The position numbers and the translations under genes were made by a program. The notes below the pieces were generated by a model. That model saw only the letters and a list, made by a program, of their open reading frames with translations. It did no database searches and had not been told where the DNA came from. From Thermoflexus hugenholtzii JAD2 (GTDB lineage: Bacteria; Chloroflexota; Chloroflexia; Chloroflexales; Roseiflexaceae), in assembly GCA_945881915.1 (NCBI GenBank), contig CAMCVW010000024.1, forward strand, positions 1 through 50,769: a DNA stretch of 50,769 nt, given 5' to 3'. Shown in pieces: positions 10,846 through 24,156 of this stretch (positions within the stretch are counted from its first letter, which is position 1; the number at the start of each line of letters is the position of its first letter).

Positions 10846-12501
<1,656 letters not shown>

Positions 12502-12573: not shown

Positions 12574-14736
12574 CTACTGGTACGAATACTTTGTCAGCAG
12601 CTGTATCAGATACAACACTCCCGCCAATAGATGGGCCGTCAGCACAAGCGCCAACAGATGCAACCGTAGCCCGGTATGTCGTTCACGGAACAACACGCCA
12701 AGCGTGCAGGCAAACAGCAACGGAACGATGATTCTCAATCCCCACGCGAAGTTATTGGCGGTGATTTTGGCTGGCTCCACAAAGATGAAGTATTGCAACA
12801 CGGCAATCACAAAGGCAAGCAGAATACCCATTGATAGCCGGTCGCGCCAGAGGAGCGGCGTCAGCAGAATCGTCAGCAGCGGGAACGCCACGAGTTGTAA
12901 CATCGAAAGTACGGGCGCCGGGCTACTGAGCTCGATAACAGTCATCCACGAGATTCCAAAATCGCTGCCACCATTGCTTCGCACGGTCGATTGCACGACT
13001 AGCACCACCAACGCGGCCACCGTCGGGCCGATTAGCCAACCGGCATGCAATGACATGCGGTCGCGGCGCAGCCAGAGCACGGCGAGCAGGACCCACAAGG
13101 CCGGGACAATCGCCATGGGGCCGTTGGGTTTGGCCAATGTTGCAGCTATCATCGCCAGCACCGCCAGTGGTTCCAACAGCCACAGCCGCTGACGCGATTG
13201 CGGGCGCAGGAGAGCGAACGCCAATAGAATCGCTGCCCAGGTGACGGGTTTGGCCACAATAGTCGTTGCATTATGAAATATCGTCACCGATCCCTGGCCG
13301 CGATAGATAAACCGATTGACATCGGGCAGATAGACCGGTGCTACCACGCACAGCAACAGCGATGTCAACCAAATCCACGCCCAATGCACGCGTGTACCGG
13401 CCATGCGCTGCATCACCAACGCCAGGATGACCATGCTCGCCAGTTGATAGAGTATCAATGTGACGGGGAGGGCGCGGTGGTAGTACGGATCCCGCATCAG
13501 CCAGGCGATTGTACCGATGGACCAGTGAAACCAGGGATGCGGGATGCTGACCCAGCGATTGCCGAAGCGCGTGGTGACCTCGGCTTGGCCATCGACCCAG
13601 ACGGTGTAGCGCACCAAGGCTTTACCCGACATGAGGCGTCGTGCATCGTCCATGTGAAAAGGCAGATCCGACGCCATTGCGCCATCGATTTGGCGTTGGT
13701 AGATGACCCAATACACACTCAGCAACGCGATGGTGGCCAATCCTGCCAGCACCACCACTGCCCAGATTGGGATGTGTATGCGCCGGGAACGCAGGGCCAG
13801 GATGATTGGCGAGACTGCCAGACAGGCGACGAACCCGGCGCTGCCCCAGATCCCGTGGCTGGCGTACACCGGCCAGAGCCGGCTGATGATGAGTACCGTC
13901 ACCACGAGGCACAGCCACAGGAAAAAACTGCCCCAGCCGCGTCGCGTGGCCCATTGCCGGCGAAGCCAACGTTCAGTGGCCACGACCCGCGGCATACCCC
14001 TGCGTGCGGCACGCAGTGCCGCAACCATGCCGATGAGCGCCGCGCCAGCAGCCAGCGAAGCAGTGTGTACGGGCACAATGCCGGCCAACGCCAATATCCA
14101 CGGCGCGGCGCAGCCGAGGCACGCCAATCCGACCGTTCGCAACGACCAATGCCCTTGGGTGGCACGCACTGCGAGGACGACGGCACTCAATAGCACGGTC
14201 ACAATCCAACTGAGCGGGGGTGCACCGGGGATCAAACTGAGTGTTGGTTGGATGCGGAACGACGCCAGTGCGATGCCTAATGTACGACCATCACGCGGGA
14301 GCGAAGGGGTGGTTTGGAAAGTAAATGATTGGCTATCTGCGCTGGCGTGAGGCAGGCGCACGAGCGTCTGATAGCGACGGAATGTATCGGACCGCACCGC
14401 AAACGTCGCCAGCGGCTGGTTTGCTTGACCGAGCATCAGTATGGCTTGTGGGTCGGCTGCGATGACGTTCAGGTGTGCAATGGACCACCCACTGCGCGGC
14501 GAAGCGCTGGTGAGTGTTGCATCTGCACCAGCCCAACGGAATGTGGTCGCGCCATCGGGCGTCGATTCGACGCCATCAAAGCCAGAAAATCCACGCATCT
14601 GTGCCGTCGTGATTGCAATCGGCATTACTGTGAGCCAGACGGCAATCAGCGATGCAATCGCATAGAGTGCGATGCATGCGAGGTGGAGACGCGTCGTGTT
14701 TTTTGGTCGGGTTGTCTGTGTAGGGTTTGGTTTCAT
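12574..14736 (-). CDS. Large polytopic membrane protein, unknown function
   Basis: 720 residues from ATG 14736 (AAAAGG about 9 bases upstream); an in-frame ATG 45 bases earlier would lie inside a hairpin and is less likely. One N-terminal helix (about 20-45), an extracytoplasmic domain of roughly 130 residues, then a dozen or more membrane helices from about residue 165 to the C-terminus. The loop HPWFHWSIGT and the overall pattern resemble GT-C-type sugar transferases of the cell envelope, but no catalytic motif can be named. It lies downstream of the exporter operon on the same strand, separated by 165 bases containing a long hairpin. Confidence 0.65.
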   Translation of the reverse strand: MKPNPTQTTRPKNTTRLHLACIALYAIASLIAVWLTVMPIAITTAQMRGFSGFDGVESTPDGATTFRWAGADATLTSASPRSGWSIAHLNVIAADPQAILMLGQANQPLATFAVRSDTFRRYQTLVRLPHASADSQSFTFQTTPSLPRDGRTLGIALASFRIQPTLSLIPGAPPLSWIVTVLLSAVVLAVRATQGHWSLRTVGLACLGCAAPWILALAGIVPVHTASLAAGAALIGMVAALRAARRGMPRVVATERWLRRQWATRRGWGSFFLWLCLVVTVLIISRLWPVYASHGIWGSAGFVACLAVSPIILALRSRRIHIPIWAVVVLAGLATIALLSVYWVIYQRQIDGAMASDLPFHMDDARRLMSGKALVRYTVWVDGQAEVTTRFGNRWVSIPHPWFHWSIGTIAWLMRDPYYHRALPVTLILYQLASMVILALVMQRMAGTRVHWAWIWLTSLLLCVVAPVYLPDVNRFIYRGQGSVTIFHNATTIVAKPVTWAAILLAFALLRPQSRQRLWLLEPLAVLAMIAATLAKPNGPMAIVPALWVLLAVLWLRRDRMSLHAGWLIGPTVAALVVLVVQSTVRSNGGSDFGISWMTVIELSSPAPVLSMLQLVAFPLLTILLTPLLWRDRLSMGILLAFVIAVLQYFIFVEPAKITANNFAWGLRIIVPLLFACTLGVLFRERHTGLRLHLLALVLTAHLLAGVLYLIQLLTKYSYQ

Positions 14737-14755
14737 TGCAATGCCTTTTATTTTA

Positions 14756-14791
14756 ATCGGTTCGCGTGGAGGTTTGGACACGCGAACCGAT
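14756..14791. promoter_or_regulatory. 13-bp inverted repeat before the membrane protein gene
   Basis: ATCGGTTCGCGTG (14756-14768) and CACGCGAACCGAT (14779-14791) are perfect inverted repeats around a 10-base loop. No T tract follows on either strand, so it is not a standard terminator. It lies 19 bases upstream of the reverse-strand start at 14736 and may be a leader hairpin, an operator, or the end of the exporter operon transcript. Confidence 0.6.
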
Positions 14792-14901: not shown

Positions 14902-15627
14902 TTATACTACTGCAGTTGCGTCCTCGATGTTGCCAGCAAGCGATTCATAGACTTGGCCATCGCGCATGTGATGCACGATGTCTGCATAGTGATGTACCGA
15001 TTGGTCGTGGGTCGCCATGATGAGGGTGACACCTTCGCTCTTGACGATGGTGCGCATCAAGGTCATCAGATTTTTGCCGGTCGTGGAGTCCAACTCGCCG
15101 GTCGGCTCGTCGGCAATCAGGATGGGTGGGCGCGACACGAGCGCACGGGCGATGGCGACGCGTTGCTGCTGACCGCCCGACATTTCGGAGGGGCGATGAT
15201 CGGCCCACTGCTCGAGGCCGACCAGTGTGAGTGCTTCGAGGGCGCGTTGGCGTCGTTCTTTGCCGGATTTGACGCCGGATATGCGCAACGGCAACTCGAC
15301 GTTTTCCCATGCTGACAAAATCGGCAACAAGGCAAATGCTTGGAAGATGAAGCCGATTTTGTCGCGGCGGATGTCGGTCAGTTGGTCTTGTGACAATTTG
15401 GCGGTGTTTTGGCCCAAGAAGTAGATATTGCCCGAGGTCGGTGTATCCAACCCGCCGATCATGTTGAGGAGGGTCGTTTTGCCCGAACCGGACCGGCCCA
15501 TGAACGCGGTAAACGTGCCGCGTTCGATGGACATATTGACGCCGCGCAGGGCCAAAACTTGTTCGTTGTTGACTGAGTAGGCGCGGGTGACGTCCTCGAT
15601 GCGGACCGCGGTATTGTTGTTCGTCAT
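14902..15627 (-). CDS. ABC exporter ATPase, MacB/LolD type
   Basis: 241 residues. Walker A GRSGSGKTT (44-52), Q-loop Gln near 96, signature MSGGQQQ (149-155), Walker B ILIADEPTGELD (169-180) and H-loop His207. The TGELD ending of Walker B and the spacing place it in the MacB/LolD/FtsE branch that powers FtsX-type permeases without transporting substrate through the membrane. Start overlaps the previous ATPase gene by 4 bases (ATGA), so both are translationally coupled. It is the last gene of the operon adaptor-permease-ATPase-ATPase. Confidence 0.93.
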   Translation of the reverse strand: MTNNNTAVRIEDVTRAYSVNNEQVLALRGVNMSIERGTFTAFMGRSGSGKTTLLNMIGGLDTPTSGNIYFLGQNTAKLSQDQLTDIRRDKIGFIFQAFALLPILSAWENVELPLRISGVKSGKERRQRALEALTLVGLEQWADHRPSEMSGGQQQRVAIARALVSRPPILIADEPTGELDSTTGKNLMTLMRTIVKSEGVTLIMATHDQSVHHYADIVHHMRDGQVYESLAGNIEDATAVV

Positions 15628-16625
15628 TTCATGCGGCTCCTGATGTTGGCCATCATGCGATCAAAACGACTGGGCTTGAGCTCAGGCGGTGCATCGGCAT
15701 CGGTCAAACGGCGTTCGCGTTCGATATCGGCAGCCTCGGCAGCGGTATTGACGGGCGGCTTGATAAAGATGCCGTCTGCTTGCTCCTCCATCACCAATCG
15801 GTCGCGGATACCGTAGCGTGAGCGCAGTTCTTTGGGAATCTGTAGGCGACCCGCCGAGTCGAGCATGTGGAGTTCTTCGAGGTGGGACTCGTCGAATCTG
15901 CCGGTGCCGCCCTGCACATCGAGGCGTTTGACCGTCTCGCTGCTGGTTTTGCCGTCACGAATCGACACCACTCGATTGACGAAGTGGGCGATATTGGGAT
16001 CGTGCGACACGATGATGACCGTCAGGGCAAACCGCCGATTGAGCTCGTGGAAGATGTTGAAGACCACTTCGGCCGTCTGCGAGTCGAGTTCGCCGGTGGG
16101 TTCGTCACCGAGCAGTAATGCCGGCTTGTTGGCCAAGGCGATGGCGATGGCCACACGCTGTTGCTCACCACCCGACAGCTGGGCCAGTTTGTGGCCACGG
16201 CGATGATTCAGACGCACCGCGTCGATGAGTTCGGCGACCCACTCTCTGCGTTCACGGGAAGGGACGCCGCTCATAATCATGGGCAGTTCGATGTTCTGCT
16301 CGACATCGAGGTAGGGGATGAGGTTACGGGCCTTTTGTTGCCAAACAAAACCCACGTACTGGCGCCGGTATGCATCCAGCGATCCGTCGGTCAATTTGAG
16401 CAGGTCGTTACCGGCGACGATGAGCTTGCCGGCGTTGGGGCGGTCGAGACCGCCGATGACGTTGAGGAGTGTGGTTTTGCCCGAACCCGATGATCCGACC
16501 AAGGCCATCACTTCGCCGCGGCGGATGGTCATATCGAGGCCCTGCAGGGCCATCACCTCGAGGTCATCGATGCGATAGACCTTGATGAGATTCTCACAGG
16601 TAACGATGGCGTCCGATGTGGTCAT
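15624..16625 (-). CDS. ABC exporter ATPase with C-terminal AbrB-type domain
   Basis: 333 residues, about 90 longer than its neighbour. Residues 1-230 are a complete MacB-type ATPase: Walker A GSSGSGKTT (44-52), Q-loop QQ (96-97), LSGGEQQ (150-156), Walker B GDEPTGELD, H-loop SHD (207-209). Residues about 252-290 (LDSAGRLQIPKELRSRYGI, then LVMEEQADGIFIKP) match the swapped-hairpin AbrB/SpoVT/MazE DNA-binding fold, followed by an acidic and then basic tail. Overlaps the permease gene by 4 bases and the second ATPase gene by 4 bases. The two different ATPases presumably form a heterodimer on the single large permease. The AbrB-like part could bind DNA, mediate dimerisation, or be a structural insert; this is inference. 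Confidence 0.9.
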   Translation of the reverse strand: MTTSDAIVTCENLIKVYRIDDLEVMALQGLDMTIRRGEVMALVGSSGSGKTTLLNVIGGLDRPNAGKLIVAGNDLLKLTDGSLDAYRRQYVGFVWQQKARNLIPYLDVEQNIELPMIMSGVPSRERREWVAELIDAVRLNHRRGHKLAQLSGGEQQRVAIAIALANKPALLLGDEPTGELDSQTAEVVFNIFHELNRRFALTVIIVSHDPNIAHFVNRVVSIRDGKTSSETVKRLDVQGGTGRFDESHLEELHMLDSAGRLQIPKELRSRYGIRDRLVMEEQADGIFIKPPVNTAAEAADIERERRLTDADAPPELKPSRFDRMMANIRSRMK

Positions 16626-21582: not shown

Positions 21583-24156
21583 ATGGCACGAATGCGTACG
21601 CGCAGCGTACAATTTGGGCAAATGAGCGGCGACAACTCATCGAGTGAAGAACTCATTCTCATGTGCGAAGCAATCGACCCGATGTCGGTTGAGGCGCGCA
21701 AGGGGGAGTTGTATGTGCTGATCGAAGGCGGCACCGACCATCACAAGCATCGCAGTGCCATCCAGATGCTCATGCGTACCATCCAACGACTTTTTTACGA
21801 AAACGCCTCGTTCAGCATTCACGCCTCACTCCGTCGGGCCATCATGGCTGCCAACCAGGGTCTGTACGAATACAACATCGCTCACATGCCGCAGCAACGT
21901 ATCTCGTTTGGCATGACGTGTGCAGTCATCAAAGGCAATGACCTCTACATCGCACAGATTTTACCGGCCCAGACGTATATATTGTCCGAAGGCCAAATGC
22001 GGTCGATCCCTGCCGGTCCGTTGTGGCGCCAGTCCGCGCAGAGCACGAACGCGGCAGTCAGCAATGGCTTGCTCGGGGGCAGTCTTTCGGTCGAGCCAGA
22101 ATTCTACCGTGCGGCGCTGCTCCAACGCGAGGGCTTGATTCTGGTCACCAGCAATATGGCTCGAATACTCGGACGCGACGACATGGCGCCGATTATGCGC
22201 TCGGGGGATGTCGGCATGATGGCCGAAGGCATGCACGCGGTATTACGTGACGCCACCATTGGGGACGTATACGGCATCGCCATCATGCTCGACAGCAGCA
22301 ACGAAGTGGAACGCCAGCAAACGAGCAGCTTTTCGAGTATTACACAACAGTTGATGGTTGCCACTGATAACACGGGGCTGTGGTTTGCGCGTTTGGTGGC
22401 CTGGGTGCGTACCTTGCTCATCGGCGCGCAGGAGCGCCGATTTTCGCAATCCGGCAACAGCTACCGCGGTATCGCACGGGAAGAGCAACAGCGGATGACC
22501 CGCCAACCGCCCGAGGTACCGTACACGGTCGATCGCATCCCCAATCCTGCGCCGATAGATGTCGGCGACGAAATCGATGTGCAGGTGGAGCGCCTAAGTC
22601 GCAACGATACGGTCAAAAACCGTACCGAACGGCCCCAACAGGTCATCGAAGCGGTGGATGTCGAAGTACCCTCGACGCCGCTCGACACCGACTATCGGGC
22701 GACGCCGGGCCGATATCGTACCCAGCAGACCGAACCCATCAAATATAGCGAACTGATGGGCTCGCTGTTCCAACGGGTATTGAGCCAACGCTGGTTCCGC
22801 ATGCCGACCCCCACGCAACGGCGCATGCAGTCCGTGTCACGGGGCGAGGGTCTGTCGTATCGCAAACAAAAACCACCATTCCCATGGGCCATGCTCTCGC
22901 TGATGGGTGCGCTCATCGCCGTGCTGTTCTTCTATGGCACCAATGTGGCGCGCGAGAATCGCCTGCAACGGAGCGAAAACAGCATCGTCACGGCAGAGGT
23001 CGCCGTGCAGTCCATCAGCGATGCAGCCACTGAACGCGACGCCGAGCAACGCATCGAAGTAGCCCGGACGATGTTGAGCGATTTGCAACAGAGCGGCGTC
23101 TTTACTGCGACGACCAGCAATCGGCAACGATACTTCAGCATGATCAACAAAATCGAAAAAGCCGAACGCGTCGTGCAACGCCGCTCGCTCCTCGAAGACA
23201 TCCAGGTCGTCGCCCAACATCCCCTCAAGAGCGGGATGTTTACCAGCGTCATCGTGCCGCCACCGGCGACCTTGATCGAAAACGCCAGTAACTTCGAGAT
23301 GATATATCTCTACGATGGCAATGCTGGCATTTTGTACAACGTCCCGCGTGAAGGTGGGACTCCTGCCCCAATGCTGCAACCCAATGCGCAAATCGGCGAT
23401 GTGACGGTGGCCAAAGTGTTCGACGTCGCATGGCGTATCGACAGCATCATCGCCATCGCACAGAGCGCCAACAATGGCCCGTATATCTATTTTTTTCGCA
23501 ATGGCAACGACTGGAACTATAGTATTTTGGCAGGCAGCCTGGAGTGGAGTCCCAGCGATCGGAGCATGCGCGTGCAGAGCTTCGGCGGCAATTTATATGT
23601 ATGGGGTGTGACTGCGAGTAACATCCTGCGCTATATGTCGACGCAATTCGGTGACTTCCCCACTCCCTGGATCCAAAACGATGGCGGCCAGTCGTTCGAA
23701 ACCGCAGTCGATATGGGCATCGATGGGCACATCTACTTGTTGATGCCGAACGGTAGCATCAAAGTGTTTACGCAAGTGGCAGACGGCGAGCGTACCTACG
23801 AACGCACCATGAATGTCCCTGCAATCACGCCGCCGATTCGTTCGGTTAGTCGGATGGTGGTGACGGGTGATGGCGACAACGGGTACTTCTACATTGTCGA
23901 CAGTTATGGCGGCCGCATCATCCAAATCGAAAAACGCAGTGGACGCTTCATGCAGCAGATCGCGGTGCCATCCGACAGCGAAATCCAGTTGGACAATCTG
24001 ACATCGGTCGCCATCGACGAGACGCAAGCACGCCCGATGCTCTACTTCGTCAACGGCGGCACACTCTACAAAGCTCCGCTGCCCGACCCACCACAAGCGT
24101 ACATCCAACGCGGAGACAACGTCGTACTCCCGACATCGATACCGACCGCACCATAA
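21583..24156 (+). CDS. Degenerate PP2C-fold membrane protein with extracellular propeller-like domain
   Basis: 857 residues. Residues about 1-220 follow the order of elements in PP2C/SpoIIE phosphatases: EGGTDHH at 48-54 where the metal motif DGMGG(H) is expected, FGMTCAVIKGNDLYIAQILP (109-128 region) where GTTL...ANVGDSR is expected, and LILVTSNMA (175-183) where LLCSDGL is expected. The catalytic Asp residues are absent at each site, so it should be inactive. Residues 221-410 are hydrophilic linker; one membrane helix lies at about 414-433; then a short coiled-coil-like stretch (440-520) and a C-terminal region with repeating beta-rich units such as GNLYVWGV, GHIYLLM and GYFYIVDSYGGRIIQIE, like NHL/beta-propeller proteins. 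Role unknown; zwf follows after 19 bases. Confidence 0.75.
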   Translation: MARMRTRSVQFGQMSGDNSSSEELILMCEAIDPMSVEARKGELYVLIEGGTDHHKHRSAIQMLMRTIQRLFYENASFSIHASLRRAIMAANQGLYEYNIAHMPQQRISFGMTCAVIKGNDLYIAQILPAQTYILSEGQMRSIPAGPLWRQSAQSTNAAVSNGLLGGSLSVEPEFYRAALLQREGLILVTSNMARILGRDDMAPIMRSGDVGMMAEGMHAVLRDATIGDVYGIAIMLDSSNEVERQQTSSFSSITQQLMVATDNTGLWFARLVAWVRTLLIGAQERRFSQSGNSYRGIAREEQQRMTRQPPEVPYTVDRIPNPAPIDVGDEIDVQVERLSRNDTVKNRTERPQQVIEAVDVEVPSTPLDTDYRATPGRYRTQQTEPIKYSELMGSLFQRVLSQRWFRMPTPTQRRMQSVSRGEGLSYRKQKPPFPWAMLSLMGALIAVLFFYGTNVARENRLQRSENSIVTAEVAVQSISDAATERDAEQRIEVARTMLSDLQQSGVFTATTSNRQRYFSMINKIEKAERVVQRRSLLEDIQVVAQHPLKSGMFTSVIVPPPATLIENASNFEMIYLYDGNAGILYNVPREGGTPAPMLQPNAQIGDVTVAKVFDVAWRIDSIIAIAQSANNGPYIYFFRNGNDWNYSILAGSLEWSPSDRSMRVQSFGGNLYVWGVTASNILRYMSTQFGDFPTPWIQNDGGQSFETAVDMGIDGHIYLLMPNGSIKVFTQVADGERTYERTMNVPAITPPIRSVSRMVVTGDGDNGYFYIVDSYGGRIIQIEKRSGRFMQQIAVPSDSEIQLDNLTSVAIDETQARPMLYFVNGGTLYKAPLPDPPQAYIQRGDNVVLPTSIPTAP

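Follow-up and report, generated by a model that had tools for sequence, protein, structure and literature searches.

Domains of the AbrB/SpoVT type are best known from DNA-binding regulators, and those of AbrB form interleaved dimers. DNA is contacted in B. subtilis AbrB by R8, R15, R23 and R24 (PMC5222340, PMC4022651); replacing R15 by alanine weakens DNA binding about five-fold without abolishing it and changes the oligomer state (PMC4022651). Among ABC transporters, the C-terminal tails of MetN, ModC and MalK self-associate below the ATPase domains (NBDs) (PMC7367683, PMC10710835). In the parts of a survey of B. subtilis ABC transporters considered here, the regulatory tails reported belong to importers and type V exporters, no such tail is mentioned for type VII, and the MacB-like members of that type are called two-fold symmetrical (PMC11466899). 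The locus described below brings these two themes together, in that an AbrB-like domain sits at the C-terminus of one of two unequal ATPases in an operon of type VII character.

An operon with two unequal ATPases

In the window (the whole 50,769-nucleotide stretch of DNA that was analysed), an operon on the minus strand encodes, in this order, an adaptor, a permease, an ATPase with an AbrB-like C-terminal domain and a plain ATPase (Table 1). The open reading frame of the fusion is intact and, as the preliminary description had noted, the operon contains a second, plain ATPase. The permease stop overlaps the fusion start by four bases, and the fusion overlaps the start of the plain ATPase to the same extent; both overlaps suggest translational coupling. 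Hydropathy gives the permease about ten hydrophobic segments, and the N-terminus of the adaptor is lipoprotein-like.

Table 1. Positions in the window of the operon's genes and of the parts of the fusion ATPase
Feature	Position	Strand	Evidence
NBD-AbrB fusion ATPase (P0001), 333 aa	15624..16625, including stop	-	ORF and translation
NBD of fusion ATPase, residues 7-231	15933..16607	-	TIGR02211, E 1e-62; conserved catalytic set
AbrB/SpoVT-like domain of fusion, residues 249-290, motif LDSAGRLQIPKELR	15756..15881	-	MazE/AbrB models, profile comparison
Variable C-terminal tail of fusion, residues 291-333	15627..15755	-	Alignment, dN/dS
Plain partner ATPase, 241 aa, without AbrB tail	14902..15627	-	
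Duplicated FtsX-type permease, 978 aa	16622..19558	-	PF02687, two FtsX stretches; hydropathy
MacA/HlyD-like adaptor, 510 aa	19580..21112	-	TIGR01730, 108.6 bits (cut-off 94.9)

Most of the fusion protein, residues 7–231, is assigned to a LolD/MacB-type ATP-binding domain, with the LolD model TIGR02211 matching residues 7–226. Its motifs are Walker A (44–51), Q96, LSGGE (150–154), DE (174–175) and H208. The Walker A, Walker B, signature, Q and H residues are kept in both the fusion and the plain NBD, and thus neither looks dead. A LolD-like NBD with complete catalytic motifs next to an FtsX-like permease places the predicted transporter in type VII (MacB/LolCDE). The two NBDs nevertheless show fixed differences; for example, the fusion has W95 and, relative to its plain partner, a two-residue insertion in the Q-loop with N101, and where the fusion has I162 the plain NBD carries an arginine. 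The WQQxxRN stretch of the Q-loop (residues 95–101; window 16305–16345, minus strand) is a fusion-type motif, with R100 present in 50/55 and N101 in 55/55 cases, and perhaps this side of the fusion ATPase meets one particular coupling helix of the permease.

Three neighbouring genes were also noted. Downstream of the operon lies a 735-residue multi-pass membrane protein (12574–14781, minus strand) with no Pfam match; a 64% relative occupies the same place in a close relative (L010), a contig-end fragment occurs in a second locus (L017), and none was seen in the other collected loci. A 551-residue ORF (10846–12501, minus strand) carries a UbiA prenyltransferase domain at residues 284–531 (PF01040, E 2.7e-64), and its N-terminal half, which looks membrane-embedded, may be a fused heme A synthase (CtaA-like), an assignment that Pfam did not confirm. 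Divergent from the operon, on the plus strand, is an 857-residue protein (21583–24156), also with no Pfam match.

The AbrB-like domain and its contact residues

Matches of the single protein to AbrB-type models stay below their cut-offs, and the case for homology rests on the family. The MazE_antitoxin model PF04014 aligns at about residues 253–291 of the whole protein with 15.4 bits (cut-off 24.7), and on the tail fragment TIGR01439, an AbrB model with a curated cut-off of 28.3, falls just short at 25.7 bits (E 6.6e-6). Across the family, TIGR01439 matches 14 of 29 members (best E 2.5e-9), and an hhalign comparison of the profile of 29 fused tails with that of 16 standalone AbrB domains, drawn from genomes of the same class, returns a probability of 96.7% and an E-value of 3.8e-10. 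By this significant profile similarity, the tail can be assigned to the AbrB/SpoVT superfamily. The domain evolves with a dN/dS of about 0.03–0.23 between relatives, whereas identity in the linker before it falls to as few as 3 of 17 residues; this difference supports a real domain under selection. Beyond it, conservation of residues 291–333 is limited to close relatives. The preliminary description of an exporter-type ATPase ending in an AbrB-type domain is borne out by the sequence matches and the dN/dS results together.

The predicted structure of the domain (mean pLDDT 59.8) has the beta-beta-alpha-beta-beta element order of AbrB. When this model was searched with Foldseek the top matches were AbrB and SpoVT, at E 0.18 or worse, and with VIA all nine rows were AbrB, MazE, VapB or SpoVT, at Z 2.1–2.7; neither set is significant. 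The full-length model reaches a pLDDT of only 47.6, probably because the alignment is shallow. A swapped-hairpin AbrB fold is thus supported by the sequence, with predictions too weak to prove it.

One competing likeness was rejected. The best PDB matches of the tail profile are SRP GTPases (E 0.0013), which suggested an SRP54/FtsY relationship, but they align through a short D-x-AGRLQI only. As the tail has about 42 residues and no P-loop, and the AbrB matches span the whole domain, we regard this as a chance motif.

Positions were matched to AbrB numbering visually, over the motif without gaps, with B. subtilis AbrB as the reference sequence. The conserved Arg and Pro contact residues by which the preliminary description proposed to judge the domain have mostly been lost: among 41 non-redundant fused domains the equivalents of R8 and R24 are never present (0/41 each) and that of R23 is mostly gone (kept in 11/41), whereas R15 (39/41) and the proline (40/41) stand. 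The R24-equivalent site is acidic in 33/41. In the protein studied here the four sites are H253, R260, R268 and S269, such that two of the four arginines are kept. The mean net charge of the fused domains is −1.9, against +2.2 for the 16 standalone domains (Mann–Whitney p 1.2e-6, an optimistic value because related sequences are not independent). The fused domains therefore lack the full arginine set and, on average, the basic character of an AbrB-type DNA-binding transcription factor. What is invariant, or nearly so, is a different set (E251, D256, G259, Q262 and R/K276), of which E251, Q262 and R276 are specific to the family and not typical of standalone AbrB. Because the contact residues are mostly lost, the strong constraint on the domain is not one for AbrB-style DNA contact.

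These observations bear on the earlier suggestion that the transporter could act on DNA, by autoregulating its own operon or by being tethered to the nucleoid. The AbrB homology itself speaks for this idea, as do the R15 and R23 equivalents kept here and the archaeal AbrB-fold protein Sso7c4, which binds DNA with two arginine pairs (PMC5222340). It is made improbable by the uniform absence of R8 and R24 equivalents, the mostly acidic R24 site and the net negative charge; in addition, only two weak inverted repeats lie upstream of the operon, and a membrane complex would be an unusual place for a repressor. We rejected DNA binding as the main role on residues and charge; with the contact residues mostly gone, the domain more likely aids NBD pairing or regulation. 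Dimerisation through the domain and sensing, two other roles named in the preliminary description, are compatible with these results.

Distribution, pairing and a proposed mechanism

The same fusion was sought in other genomes with a tail model of 72 positions, covering the end of the NBD and the AbrB domain, at a threshold of E 1e-10 or better. The model finds its own genome at 15756–15971 (E 4.6e-27), and hits were obtained in 135 of the 400 Chloroflexota genomes, which represent 78 of the 224 genera. The named genomes nearest to this one are Roseiflexaceae assemblies from metagenomes, which makes that family the probable source of the window. Plasmid records of Streptomyces clavuligerus, Kitasatospora and Paenibacillus match at E 2e-27 or better, and tblastn identified a fusion relative in a Nonomuraea gerenzanensis record, with Actinomycetota sampled through plasmid records only. 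Three further phyla, those to which an Acidobacteriota, a Gammaproteobacteria and a Bacteroidetes genome belong, gave no match in samples of 149, 200 and 148 genomes, respectively, an absence (0/497) that is weak because these sets had no positive control. No relative turned up in the viral contigs searched. In the published literature searched, which excluded most subscription journals, the architecture is not described, and a lead on archaeal PhoU-AbrB proteins gave nothing useful.

The genome also holds a second, diverged pair of fusion and plain ATPase (contig C4, 63081–63899), between dihydroxyacid dehydratase-like and MFS transporter-like genes. No recognisable permease was found near this pair, which may serve a permease elsewhere.

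Among the collected loci, the layout of permease, NBD-AbrB and NBD recurs across many Chloroflexota families. The plain NBD adjoins the fusion or shares its chain in 49 of 55 non-redundant fusion loci, and in one more, from Paenibacillus, it lies at the operon start. Five genomes, all of one genus, encode a single chain, NBD-AbrB-NBD. The AbrB tail is never on the plain partner. Because the genes travel together and are joined in one chain in one genus, the plain ATPase looks like a partner and not a spare, and we predict from the sequences that the two ATPases form a heterodimer. Pairing fits better than the earlier view that the plain ATPase leaves the fusion with an extra job. The mirror-tree correlation of the two NBDs is 0.74, a value that includes species history and hence was not counted as evidence.

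Given that the AbrB fold is an interleaved dimer, the copy number per transporter matters. The commonest layout has one AbrB domain per presumed heterodimer and transporter. Four proteins, from three genomes of one family, have a tandem NBD-AbrB-AbrB arrangement; in all four the first copy has L or M at the R15 equivalent and the second keeps it. This asymmetry is circumstantial evidence, being what would be expected if one chain made an uneven pseudo-dimer. No plain NBD lies near the fusion in two loci, and a third ends early; equally circumstantially, loci that lack a plain NBD would carry two AbrB copies as NBD homodimers. Two further proteins carry, ahead of an intact AbrB copy, what seems to be the remnant of another, no longer recognisable as such, which would fit an ongoing reshaping of the tandem arrangement.

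The reading we favour, with a probability of about 0.5, is a heterodimeric type VII transporter in which the AbrB-like domain is a pairing or regulatory module and does not bind DNA. In this scheme the NBD-AbrB fusion and the plain NBD, an unequal pair, would together drive the single chain of the duplicated FtsX permease. A flexible linker would tether the AbrB-like domain to the C-terminus of its NBD, on the side that faces away from the membrane, where the domain could pair with another copy as an interleaved barrel. That copy would come from a neighbouring transporter or, in transporters that hold two, from the same one. Such a barrel would stabilise or regulate NBD pairing in the manner of the MetN, ModC and MalK tails. 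We infer the heterodimer, the barrel, its regulatory effect and export itself. Several points count against this reading: the predicted models on which a dimer or barrel would draw have low confidence (pLDDT 59.8 and 47.6), the fused-chain and tandem arguments concern relatives and not the protein studied here, this protein keeps the contact arginines R260 and R268, and a presumed transporter with a single AbrB domain could complete a barrel only by joining another transporter.

Since a single AbrB domain supplies only one half of a barrel, the halves of two heterodimeric transporters could unite and so hold both transporters as a fixed pair with coupled motors; we consider this unlikely, and as part of the same conjecture the tandem-AbrB lineages would have escaped bridging by forming the barrel within one chain. 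It is possible, if doubtful, that the domain has instead lost the swapped dimer and packs as a monomer against either the partner NBD or the permease, or else against a soluble regulator. The single copy in the commonest layout, the acidic domain and the family-specific invariants (E251, Q262 and R276) agree with such docking, which is harder to square with the existence of tandem duplications and with the retention in 39/41 of the R15 equivalent, the residue tied to oligomer state in AbrB. A small-molecule sensor is a very improbable variant, in which a ligand between paired AbrB domains would lock the NBDs, akin to transinhibition in MetN and ModC. The C-terminal position on the NBD and the conservation of the domain match known regulatory tails (PMC10710835, PMC11466899), but there is no known ligand, and a pocket cannot be judged without a structure.

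Comparison with known systems

The architecture is real and conserved, and of a kind already known, an NBD with a C-terminal accessory domain. Across a large bacterial phylum, an ABC motor appears to have taken up a regulator-type domain and kept it as a conserved accessory, carried by only one ATPase of the pair. If the favoured heterodimer is correct, type VII transporters, whose usual depiction has two-fold symmetry, here offer a natural setting in which asymmetric pairing of NBDs can be tested. The case also cautions against equating the label 'AbrB' with DNA binding.

The domain shares with AbrB, SpoVT and MazE the motif GR-x-x-IP, profile similarity and, in a weak model, the beta-beta-alpha-beta-beta order; unlike them it is fused to an ABC ATPase, is acidic, never has two of the four contact arginines and has invariants of its own. 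The tails of MetN (C2, or NIL), ModC, MalK (TOBE) and OpuA (CBS) are likewise C-terminal accessory domains on NBDs, and those of MetN, ModC and MalK pair below the NBDs. However, these tails have unrelated folds, belong to importers and, in most cases, occur on each of the two NBDs. The C-terminal extension of MlaF is an NBD tail that promotes NBD dimerisation (PMC7367683), but as a short peptide handshake and not a folded domain. With MacAB, LolCDE and other type VII systems the locus shares LolD-like NBDs, an FtsX permease and a MacA-like adaptor in one operon; in contrast to these, its permease is duplicated within one chain, its NBD genes are two and unequal, and one of the NBDs carries the AbrB-like domain.
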